Positions 29,735 to 49,006 of a stretch of 64,000 bases of DNA are shown in pieces. Position 1 is the first letter of the stretch; every line of letters begins with the position of its first letter. The notes below the pieces were generated by a model. The model worked only from the letters and a program-made list of their open reading frames with translations, was not told where the DNA came from and ran no database searches. Made by a program: the position numbers and the translations under genes. Where the stretch lies: assembly GCF_000010405.1 (NCBI RefSeq), contig NC_009465.1, positions 372,001-436,000 on the forward strand. Reading direction: 5' to 3'. The DNA comes from Candidatus Vesicomyosocius okutanii. Its GTDB lineage: Bacteria; Pseudomonadota; Gammaproteobacteria; PS1; Pseudothioglobaceae.

Positions 29735-29845
29735 TGTTATTATCAGTTAATATTTATCGTATAATATCTAATAGAGACAACAGAGTCTGATACTTAAAAC
29801 CCTCTTAATAATAAGAGCGTTATACTTTTAAATTTGGAGATTAAT
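29735..29845 (+). promoter_or_regulatory. Promoter and leader of the sulfur-globule-like gene
   Basis: TATAAT at 29760-29765 is a consensus -10, with a weak TTATTA 17 bases upstream. The roughly 75-base leader contains CTCTTA-ATAA-TAAGAG (29801-29816), a short hairpin, and ends with GGAG six bases before the ATG at 29846. It is one of the clearest promoters in this window. Regulation is not evident beyond this. Confidence 0.45.
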
Positions 29846-30370
29846 ATGAAAAAGATAATTGCTATTGCTACTTTAGTAGCTGCTACATCAGCATCAGCTG
29901 GTTTCTTTAACAATAGTTCAAATAATAATGGCTACGGCTATGGTAATGGTTCAAATAATTGGGGCCCATTTGATGGTGGTTCTAACTTTGGTCCAATGAA
30001 TGGAGGTTCTAATTGGGGTCCTTTTTCAGGTGGTAACAATTGGGGCCCATTTGATGGTGGTTCTAACTTTGGTCCAATGAATGGAGGTTCTAATTGGGGT
30101 CCTTTTTCGAATAATAATGATATGAACAATGATTCTGACTGGGGTTTCCATTATAACAATAAGAATAAAACTAAAAATGTTTCTAATGTAACCGCTGACG
30201 GTAAATATGCAGGTACTGCTGATGCATTTGCTAAAGGCCAAGCTGATGCATTTGCCAAAGGCCAAGCTGATGCATTTGCCAAAGCCCAAGCTGATGCTTA
30301 TGCTAAGGGTTATGCAGATGCTAAGGCTAATGCAACTGTTGATAGTCGCGATCAAGTGATTGTTAAGTAA
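29846..30370 (+). CDS. Exported Asn/Gly-rich repeat protein, sulfur-globule-protein-like
   Basis: A 174-residue secreted protein. A signal peptide (residues 1-18, MKKIIAIATLVAATSASA) precedes a low-complexity body. Residues 38-64 form a 27-residue unit rich in N, W, G, P, F (NNWGPFDGGSNFGPMNGG), repeated from residue 65. Residues 125-156 are four copies of an octamer like ADAFAKGQ. The composition resembles sulfur globule envelope proteins of purple sulfur bacteria, which coat periplasmic sulfur; that assignment is by resemblance only. The ATG at 29846 with GGAG upstream is preferred over an in-frame TTG at 29834. It has its own promoter and terminator. Confidence 0.7.
   Translation: MKKIIAIATLVAATSASAGFFNNSSNNNGYGYGNGSNNWGPFDGGSNFGPMNGGSNWGPFSGGNNWGPFDGGSNFGPMNGGSNWGPFSNNNDMNNDSDWGFHYNNKNKTKNVSNVTADGKYAGTADAFAKGQADAFAKGQADAFAKAQADAYAKGYADAKANATVDSRDQVIVK
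29957..30108 (+). repeat. 81-bp tandem duplication inside the globule-like gene
   Basis: The sequence from 29957 restarts at 30038 with almost no base changes, for 81 bases in the first copy and about 70 in the second. It keeps frame and doubles a 27-residue N/W/G/P unit. Near identity implies recent duplication or gene conversion. Confidence 0.9.
30218..30313 (+). repeat. Four 24-bp in-frame tandem repeats
   Basis: Units starting at 30218, 30242, 30266 and 30290 encode ADAFAKGQ-type octamers. The first three differ by one or two bases and the fourth has drifted. This is a copy-number-variable candidate. Confidence 0.9.
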
Positions 30371-45669: not shown

Positions 45670-46464
45670 ATGGATGTTTCTCAGACAATTGTTTTAGCGT
45701 TAATCCAAGGTTTGAGTGAGTTTTTACCTATCTCTTCTTCAGCTCATTTAATTTTAGTACCAAAGTTAACCAATTGGACTGACCAAGGTTTGATATTCGA
45801 TGTAGTGGTGCATATGGGTACTCTAAGTGCAGTGATATTTTATTATCAAGCAATGATTAGGAGTTTGTTTTTTGATTTTTATTATTCAATAATTAAACGT
45901 CAAATTATTGGTCAATCAAAGTTGGCATGGGGAGTGCTGTTAGGTACTATTCCAATAGGATTAGTTGGTATGATATTTAAAGATTTTGTTGCAGTTGATT
46001 TACGTTCAATAGAGATTATTGCTTATACAACATTAGTGTTTGGATTACTTTTAGGTTTTGCTAGTTGGTTTAATCATAAAAATAAAAATCCAAAAAGTAC
46101 AATCAGTTGGATAGATGTTAGCTTTGTCAGTATGATGCAAATCTTAGCATTAATTCCAGGAACTTCTAGATCAGGAATAACAATTACTGCTTGTATGTTA
46201 GTAGGGCTGTCTAGGAAATTATCAATACAATTTTCATTTTTATTATCAATTCCTGTAATTACTTTGTCATTAATACTTATGTTGATTGATTTGTATCATC
46301 AGACACAATTGGTTAATGTTAGTTTATTAGTCTTAGGTTTTGTAATTTCAACAATTAGCGCTTATGCAACTATTATTTTTGTTATCAGATTAATAGATAT
46401 GGTTGGTATGACACCATTTGTTATCTATAGATTAATTTTAGGCGTATTTTTATTCTTCTTATAA
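45670..46464 (+). CDS. uppP: Undecaprenyl-diphosphatase
   Basis: Recycles the lipid carrier for peptidoglycan and LPS by dephosphorylating undecaprenyl diphosphate. The 264-residue polytopic protein has about eight membrane segments, with catalytic motifs GLSEFLPISSSAHL (first loop) and PGTSRSGITI (second). It starts at ATG 45670, 17 bases after the methyltransferase stop. Full length. Confidence 0.96.
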   Translation: MDVSQTIVLALIQGLSEFLPISSSAHLILVPKLTNWTDQGLIFDVVVHMGTLSAVIFYYQAMIRSLFFDFYYSIIKRQIIGQSKLAWGVLLGTIPIGLVGMIFKDFVAVDLRSIEIIAYTTLVFGLLLGFASWFNHKNKNPKSTISWIDVSFVSMMQILALIPGTSRSGITITACMLVGLSRKLSIQFSFLLSIPVITLSLILMLIDLYHQTQLVNVSLLVLGFVISTISAYATIIFVIRLIDMVGMTPFVIYRLILGVFLFFL

Positions 46465-46929
46465 AGATATACCAGTTTCAATCTAAACTTTTTTATCCTT
46501 AACTTTGTTCTATTGGTATTATTTAAATAAGTCTGATGTGTTAAGTGTCTTTACTTCAGTACATTAAAGATTAATAAACAAAATTATCCAGTATTTCTAA
46601 TCAATGGAACAATATACTATAACCACCTTTAATCCTAAAATCTTCGCATTTTGACTAAGATTTGTTTTGCTATGCCATTGAAAATGTCTTAATTAGATAC
46701 AAAGGTCATGAATAAATATTTTTACATTAAATCATATATTTATAACGGTCGGTGTTGAAAGTATTAAAACATTTATGTAATACAAACTACTTACCAAATG
46801 TGATTGGTCGTTTATCACAAAATTATACTTACCTTCATAACCAATCAAGTCGTGAACTTTTATTTATTGAATTAATATTTTTGAAATTATTCAAGTAATA
46901 TTAAAGTGAATATATTAATCACCTTGTTA
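46465..46929. other. Gene-free stretch after uppP
   Basis: About 465 AT-rich bases. No recognisable coding remnant is found before the cinA scar. It may hold more eroded sequence from the same lost gene block. Confidence 0.45.
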
Positions 46930-47365
46930 AAATAAAAGTTGCTTACCATGATCGTGGTTGAGTCTTATATAGGTAGAAGTATTAGTATTAATTACTAATT
47001 AAAATGGTTAATAAACCTATTTTGACAAAAGGTTTATTACTTATTTCAACCAAGTAAAAATTGATATGCTGGATATTTAGTTAATAATACTAGACAAGTT
47101 TAGTGCGGTTAGCGAACAAACTGCATTAGAAATAGTATATGATAGAATAAAAAATTATCTGTTAATATTGCAATATCAATCACTGCTATTTCTAGACTTA
47201 GTAGTGGTACGATAGATAAACCTGTTGGTACAGTTTATTTTGGTTTTGTGTTCTAAAAACTGTTTTTAACTAGTATCAAACAGTTTGGTTATAATCGAAC
47301 TAAAATAGTATAGGAAAGTATTTATTTTGTGAACTATTAAAGTTAACAGTTTGATTTATTAGTAA
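46930..47365 (+). pseudogene. cinA: CinA C-terminal-type protein (nicotinamide-nucleotide amidase), degraded
   Basis: Ordered CinA-like pieces in changing frames: VESYIGRSI (from the AESCTGGLI motif, about 46957), DKFSAVSEQTALEIVYD (about 47095) and SSGTIDKPVGTVYFGFV (about 47200-47250). FGYNRTKIV follows where FGGDRxxIR is expected. Stops and frameshifts run throughout. This domain deamidates nicotinamide mononucleotide in the pyridine cofactor cycle. In many bacteria cinA sits before recA; no recA remnant is seen here. Confidence 0.8.
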
Positions 47366-47399
47366 AAATAAATCAATATTGAATACTTGAACAAGTATT

Positions 47400-48035
47400 A
47401 TTAGCATTTGATTAGTTAATTGTCCTTGAGGTAACTGTTTTAGGTGCTTAACTACATGTGATAATTGTTTAAATCAAAACGAGTAACATTTATCAAATTT
47501 TTGAAAAAAGCGGATTAGGACTTAGTAAAGTTGTTTTAAGTTATATAGCTAGTAGCAGAGGTTGTATTGCTCAATATGAGAAATACAGTGACGTTTTTTT
47601 AATTGATATGGGAACAATATTTTTAATGTCTTTCATGTCTTATTTGAAAAGGTAAAAAGATTCAAAATTAAACATAGTACTAGCGGATAAATTAATTTAA
47701 TTCTATTGAACAATGTTATTTATTATTACATAGTTTAGCTGACATTTTAGAAAAATCTTATCAAGATATTTGTTATTTTTTTAAGCAAAATTTAAAAGCT
47801 GAAAAGCTATATAGAACGCTCAAATCAGGATTGTTGTTAATAGGCGGTATATCTTGAATAGAAGGTTGTGAGGGATTATTTGTTAATACATTTAAATAAG
47901 CACCAAACTGGTTAAAGTTGATATAAATAAAATTATAGGCAAGAATGTGATTAGTTCTAGTTCTAGTTCTAGTTGTATTCTTAAGCCTGTTTGTTGATGC
48001 ATACTGATAATAATGCTTATGTAGAAGTAGTGTAA
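47400..48035 (+). pseudogene. ftsA: Cell division protein FtsA, degraded
   Basis: Matches to the FtsA ATPase fold run in order: LHVIIV (about 47450), IYQIFEKSGLGLSKVVLSY (about 47490-47545), YSDVFLIDMGT (phosphate 2 motif, about 47585) and SGLLLIGGIS (adenosine motif, about 47830). IEGCEGLFVNTFK and the tail NAYVEVV follow, ending at TAA 48035. The N-terminal third is missing and stops interrupt the rest. lpxC follows after 59 bases, whereas ftsA-ftsZ-lpxC is the usual order, so ftsZ has been deleted here. Confidence 0.85.
47953..47974 (+). repeat. Short tandem AGTTCT x3.7
   Basis: Three copies of AGTTCT plus AGTT inside the ftsA remnant. Likely slippage in unconstrained sequence. Confidence 0.8.
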
Positions 48036-48094
48036 GAACCTCAATAAACTAACTTTGTGAGTAAAATAAAATTATTACTGGAATAATAAATATT

Positions 48095-49006
48095 ATGATC
48101 AAGCAAAGAACCATTAAAAAAGAAGTTAAAGCTAGAGGTATCGGCATTCATAGTGGTAGTGTTGTAAATATGACTTTGATTCCTGCTAAAGAAGACCATG
48201 GTGTAGTATTTAGGCGCATGGATGTGGGTGATAAATTGGTGCGTGCACATAGTGCCTTTGTTAATGAGGTGGTGCTTTCTACTGGTCTTGAAAATAAAGG
48301 TGTTAAGGTGTCAACAGTTGAGCATTTAATGAGTGCATTTTCAGCTCTTGGGATTGATAATGTTTTAGTAGAACTTGATTCGTTTGAAGTACCAATTATG
48401 GACGGCTCATCTGCTCCTTTTATTTTTCTGGTTCAGTCTGCTGGTATTGAAGAACAAAGTACTCATAAAAAATTTTTTGTCATCAAGGATACCATACGAG
48501 TAGAAAATGGTGATTCATGGGCACAAGTGTCTAAATATGAAGGATTTAAGGTGTCACTTGAAATTGATTTTGATCATAAAAAAGTTAAGGAAAGTGGAGA
48601 GAAATTGAGTATTAATTTTTCCAAACAATCATATTTAAAAGAAATTTCGCGTGCCAGAACTTTTGGTTACATGAAGGATGTAGAAATGATGCAAAGACAA
48701 AATTTAGCACTTGGTGCGAGCATGGATAATGCGATTGCTTTAAGTGATGATGATGTTTTAAACGAAGATGGTATGCGTTATCAAAATGAATTTGTTAAAC
48801 ATAAGATTTTGGATATTGTTGGTGACTTATATTTATTAGGTAGTAATCTAATTGGACATTACGAAGGATATAAGACAGGGCATTTGCTTAATGATCAATT
48901 GTTATCAACCATTTTAGCAAAGCCTGATACATGGTCTATTGAGACATTTGAAGAAGATAACTCTCCTATTCAATTTTATTCTGAAGATTGGCAAAATTCC
49001 TTATAA
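48095..49006 (+). CDS. lpxC: UDP-3-O-acyl-N-acetylglucosamine deacetylase
   Basis: Zinc enzyme committing precursors to lipid A. The 303 residues carry the zinc ligands H77 (in TVEHLMSAF), H236 and D240 (HKILDIVGD) and the general-acid H263. [10 protein letters not shown] is intact. It starts at ATG 48095. It is the sole survivor of the usual ftsA-ftsZ-lpxC gene order here, so it must have its own promoter in the ftsA remnant. With waaA at 17 kb it shows that LPS synthesis is retained. Confidence 0.97.

Follow-up and report, generated by a model that had tools for sequence, protein, structure and literature searches.

A decayed ftsA beside lpxC in Candidatus Vesicomyosocius okutanii, and an earlier loss of ftsZ in its family

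We analyzed a window of 64,000 nucleotides (G000:C1:372001-436000) from Candidatus Vesicomyosocius okutanii, which lives in a deep-sea clam as a thioautotrophic symbiont and has a genome of 1,022,154 bp on a single contig (AP009247; PMC1974822). All features of the division locus described here lie on the plus strand of the window. An intact uppP, encoding undecaprenyl-diphosphatase (45670 to 46464, an ORF of 264 aa named from its own sequence), and an intact lpxC (48095 to 49006, an ORF scoring 336 bits to the TIGR00325 lpxC profile) flank a stretch, from 46464 to 48095, without any intact gene. Within this stretch, we found a cinA relic spanning about residues 35 to 150 with one frameshift (46985 to 47331, tblastn E 7e-24 with the CinA of a relative), followed by an ftsA pseudogene with frameshifts and stops (47356 to 48083). 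In relatives, dusA lies between cinA and ftsA, but upstream of the ftsA relic it has left no detectable trace; the deletion that took away ftsA codons 1 to 124 removed it as well. The upstream neighbor is uppP in the Vesicomyosocius clade too (L051, L052, and L187). The gap between the ftsA remnant and the start of lpxC is 11 bases, which leaves no room for ftsZ. A preliminary description of this DNA had placed lpxC 59 bases past the relic; the 3' end of the relic is longer than that description assumed, with a tail readable to 48083.

When the FtsA proteins of relatives were compared to the whole window by tblastn, the only match was the relic (47356 to 48065, residues 125 to 399 of 406), which falls into four pieces in three frames with 47 to 64% identity to the FtsA of close relatives. 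The first piece covers residues about 125 to 226 (47356 to 47643, 75 bits, E 5.8e-17). The second covers residues 278 to 344, from subdomain 2B to 2A, and includes SGLLLIGGIS*IEGCEG (47696 to 47896, 94 bits, 64% identity). Residues 345 to 373 follow in a shifted frame (47896 to 47982, 55% identity), and the last piece runs from residue 375 to the C terminus (47991 to 48083); it combines a tblastn match at 47991 to 48065 (residues 375 to 399) with a C-terminal tail that we read at 48048 to 48083 in the same frame and compared with the C termini of relatives. Codons 1 to 124 and 227 to 277 are deleted. The pieces form two groups (E 3.8e-28 and 5.8e-17) with best piece scores of 94 and 75 bits, compared to 23.9 bits for the best single match in 200 shuffles of the relic. 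A whole-genome search with the curated ftsA profile TIGR01174 found the relic independently (G000:C1:419440-419616, which is window 47440 to 47616; 26.8 bits, E 9.4e-7, two stops). The FtsA motifs quoted in the preliminary description are present, and its identification of ftsA as a decayed pseudogene is borne out, since both relatives' FtsA and TIGR01174 match the relic and the frames are broken.

We then considered the rest of the V. okutanii genome. An intact ftsA was sought elsewhere and not found; the only strong FtsA-family match is MreB. We rejected a strong PF14450 match at G000:C1:756677 as a second ftsA, as this is MreB with mreCD behind it. No tubulin/FtsZ family match was detected anywhere in the genome by profile search, and relocation of ftsZ was therefore rejected; in control genomes across bacteria and archaea, the PF00091 profile found FtsZ in 13 of 14. 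With no ftsZ in the genome, a Z ring cannot be made, as had been proposed from the sequence alone together with a suspicion, which proved right, that a vesicomyid symbiont was the source. MinC is also absent from this genome, and there is no true MinD, the partial matches being other P-loop ATPases; mreBCD are intact. The absence of ftsA and ftsZ from V. okutanii was published in 2007 (Kuwahara, via PMC1974822). The available part of that account reports both genes missing from this same genome and describes no pseudogene, while here the two losses are dated to different ancestors.

To date the losses, we used a set of 83 genomes of the order, of which 49 are at least 90% complete and which includes complete genomes of up to 2.8 Mb. 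A PF00091 profile search detected FtsZ in 0 of the 83, free-living members included; applied to a class-wide sample of 232 genomes, the same search detected it in 220. We also surveyed named genomes via lpxC, which yielded 64 family loci, 57 with a full-length ftsA frame adjoining lpxC and none with ftsZ. The seven other loci are two Vesicomyosocius relics (L051 and L052), a broken copy in Ruthia sp. Plio (L053), an interrupted one (L083), and three that end at contig ends (L084, L089, and L106). In every family locus where the region is present, ftsA adjoins lpxC without ftsZ. The usual order in the family is cinA-dusA-ftsA-lpxC-ilvB, with an intact ftsA of about 410 codons; with the same profiles, the outgroups have ftsA-ftsZ-lpxC. 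Free-living and mussel-associated relatives and several other clam symbionts carry an intact ftsA abutting lpxC, and the survey includes Ca. Thioglobus/Pseudothioglobus metagenome-assembled genomes and apparent open-ocean single-cell genomes. Because ftsZ is absent in these relatives, its loss predates the clam symbiosis. It is well supported that ftsZ was gone before that symbiosis and was lost neither in V. okutanii nor through symbiosis.

These data bear directly on the preliminary reading of the locus, in which ftsZ and ftsA were lost jointly in a clam symbiont under host control. Both genes are indeed missing from V. okutanii, by genome search and in the literature (PMC1974822), but free-living relatives without ftsZ keep ftsA intact, as does G002, and the family-wide absence of ftsZ refutes a joint loss via symbiosis. 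We consider this reading extremely improbable. Decay at the division locus is thus correct for ftsA and incorrect for ftsZ, and the ftsA relic is not an intermediate stage of ftsZ loss, as had been suggested, but the record of another loss, which came later and only in the Vesicomyosocius clade. This corrects the view of FtsZ loss in clam symbionts as a result of symbiosis; the loss came earlier, and it may have eased the losses that followed.

Outside the family, nine genomes of the class lacked FtsZ, and eight of these also lacked FtsA, likely because of assembly gaps or because they belong to tiny symbionts. In G123, a member of another family of the same class, FtsZ was not found and the gene order is ftsQ-ftsA-lpxC-dusA without ftsZ (L204 and L206; G123:C25). 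We therefore rejected adjacency of ftsA and lpxC without ftsZ as unique to the family within the class. In trees, G123 falls close to the family (LpxC support 0.999), although the branches are long.

The second loss is recorded in four Vesicomyosocius-type genomes (the window, L051, L052, and L187), each with an ftsA relic, and the deletions differ among them. Ruthia sp. Plio (L053) has an ftsA frameshift, a short deletion, and a broken dusA, and the remaining Ruthia genomes are intact; the break in Ruthia sp. Plio is an event independent of the Vesicomyosocius loss. FtsW follows the pattern of FtsA, being present in the family outside Vesicomyosocius and relict inside it. In relatives, ftsW sits before murG (L177), and in V. 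okutanii its relic lies between murG and an ABC-F-like ATPase gene (G000:C1:477461-478169; L174:17461-18169). RodA remains in V. okutanii alongside mreBCD. Because FtsA is dead in V. okutanii, its division must rest on something else, probably MreB/RodA and cell-wall synthesis, or the host. In Vesicomyosocius sp. Pext (G005; L208:5735-8072 and L209:4994-5725), we observed one frameshift each in mreB, mreC, mreD, and rodA, with the genes around lpxC intact; this symbiont may be losing its elongasome too and would then be without FtsZ, FtsA, and intact MreB. The MreB of V. okutanii (L001:970-2061) begins with three tandem copies of FLKGQSLD ahead of the first strand, and G005 seems to have fewer copies.

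FtsA is known for anchoring and regulating the Z ring, and the central puzzle is what it does without an FtsZ ring. Our literature search found no paper on FtsA being kept in Thioglobus, in Ruthia, or in further relatives that lack FtsZ. The full-length FtsAs of the family score 246 to 312 bits to the TIGR01174 equivalog profile (cutoff 175.85) and carry the FtsA (PF14450) and SHS2/1C (PF02491) domains, that is, an actin fold with an SHS2/1C insertion. An AlphaFold model of a family FtsA (mean pLDDT 88, pTM 0.84) is closest to E. coli FtsA (7q6d, TM 0.85/0.90) and to the V. maritimus FtsA-FtsN filament, with PilM and MreB ranking behind. The nucleotide-binding residues D14, G16, D210, G212, G336, and G337 are kept in 63 to 64 of the 64 family FtsAs. 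A basic/hydrophobic C-terminal tail is present in the listed family C termini and is still readable in the relic; the model places a helix at 397 to 403 at low confidence.

Simple pairwise NG86 estimates gave a dN/dS for ftsA of about 0.14 in two family clades, where lpxC gave 0.05 and 0.02, which indicates that family FtsA is under purifying selection weaker than that on lpxC. At 80 to 90% LpxC identity, mean FtsA identity was 0.44 in the family versus 0.88 in FtsZ-bearing bacteria (the latter from only eight pairs), and on this comparison FtsA evolves far faster in the family than in its FtsZ-bearing relatives. We examined 99 positions that are at least 90% conserved in FtsZ-bearing FtsAs; in the family, 31 are kept and 29 are lost. 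The ATP-site residues are kept. One lost position is the arginine equivalent to E. coli R300 in subdomain 2B, which we take to be a residue needed for FtsZ binding. This arginine is present in 30 of 30 FtsZ-bearing FtsAs, also in the very divergent FtsA of L019, and in 0 of 64 family FtsAs, where the position is mostly S, A, or T. Its loss fits the disappearance of an FtsZ site without proving it. The FtsA of G123 keeps the arginine in a genome without FtsZ; therefore, either R300 loss does not follow automatically from FtsZ loss, or the ftsZ loss in G123 is recent. We infer that the FtsA retained in the family is an actin homologue, full length and with its ATP site, that is probably tethered to the membrane and for which FtsZ binding would no longer be needed.

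A diverged FtsZ or another tubulin-like protein could in principle sit elsewhere in family genomes and be missed by the profile, given that extreme divergence can escape profiles and that FtsZ absence is established here by profile search. We regard this as quite unlikely, because PF00091 recovers FtsZ from nearly all controls and from none of the genomes of the order, ftsA and lpxC have no gene between them in the family, R300 is lost from family FtsA, and ZipA, a partner of FtsZ, is gone as well (0 of 14 family genomes tested, compared to 6 of 6 outgroups positive).

Other division genes show a mixed pattern. FtsQ was detected in 5 of the 14 family genomes and may be too diverged for detection in the others, and MreB-type matches were found in the family genomes searched. 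FtsZ is the known target of MinC. We found MinC in seven family genomes, and the two copies examined have both domains; no MinD exceeded the profile cutoff. In the loci whose surroundings were read, the order is tolQ-tolR-tolA-(small gene)-minC-glyS (minC at L182:4105-4833, L183:3077-3811, L184:3125-3871, L185:3036-3779, and L186:3932-4666). With minC between tolA and glyS and no MinD over the cutoff, we rejected the idea that a normal Min system is kept alongside. The small gene between tolA and minC has a weak, sub-threshold match to the Xre/MbcA/ParS antitoxin C-terminal domain.

The best explanation as a whole, which we hold to be likely, is a two-step loss with a role for FtsA after ftsZ was gone. 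In the first step, which is well supported, the common ancestor of the family (Thioglobaceae, comprising SUP05, Pseudothioglobus, and mussel and clam symbionts) lost the ftsZ that lay between ftsA and lpxC by a clean deletion, and FtsA would then have been kept for an FtsZ-independent role. Its filaments may sense curvature and so place and orient a septal peptidoglycan synthase built on FtsW and linked through FtsQ; MreB and the Tol system would act alongside. In the second step, ftsA and ftsW became pseudogenes in Vesicomyosocius, the clade of clam symbionts with the greatest reduction; in V. okutanii, MreB and RodA remain. The historical steps, loss of ftsZ and later of ftsA, are much firmer than the mechanism for FtsA. 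Taken on its own, FtsA as a curvature-sensing filament organizer of FtsW-based septal synthesis is a tentative proposal, with chances somewhat short of even. It draws on the finding that FtsA and FtsN together assemble into curved, antiparallel double filaments, which sense membrane curvature like MreB filaments and are proposed to orient septal synthesis (PMC7613929). Family FtsA resembles the E. coli and V. maritimus proteins of that study in fold, ATP site, and 1C domain, and probably also in its C-terminal tail, but differs in having no FtsZ partner, in its replaced R300, and in its fast evolution. The broader idea, in which an FtsA-led divisome serves an entire family of abundant free-living marine bacteria, with FtsA as cytoskeletal organizer of septation, possibly tuned by the orphan MinC near tolQRA without MinDE, is conceivable, although we lean slightly against it.

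Alternatively, MreB with RodA/PBP2 could run division in the FtsZ-less relatives, as in Chlamydia, with FtsA a minor accessory of FtsW/FtsQ. MreB could be the main organizer given its matches in the family genomes searched, the fast evolution of family FtsA fits an accessory, and the Vesicomyosocius clade has lost FtsA and FtsW while V. okutanii still has RodA and MreB. However, nearly all family members have a full-length FtsA. It shows the low dN/dS reported above and is kept alongside FtsW and, in some members, FtsQ; we view an MreB-run division as plausible but rather doubtful. To our knowledge, Chlamydia has no FtsA, which the family keeps. Its MreB-directed division (PMC10591338 and PMC7029139) is otherwise similar, in that FtsZ is missing and MreB and peptidoglycan enzymes remain. 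FtsZ-less division of the free-living SUP05 bacterium Ca. Thioglobus autotrophicus, a member of the same family, was described by Shah et al. (2019; PMC6509183), who found MreB expressed, a further point for the MreB alternative. FtsA is never mentioned there; the present analysis shows it retained, under selection, and altered throughout the family, with a loss in one symbiont clade. An FtsZ-less lineage with a selected FtsA that has lost a reported contact with FtsZ and kept its nucleotide-binding core offers a natural experiment separating the role of FtsA from that of FtsZ. Whether FtsA filaments alone organize septation becomes a testable question in a cultured free-living bacterium.

Elsewhere in the window, we observed a plus-strand ORF (29834 to 30370) in which glycine/asparagine-rich repeats (NWGPFDGGSNFGPMNGG) precede AKGQADAF repeats; it encodes a secreted-looking low-complexity protein.
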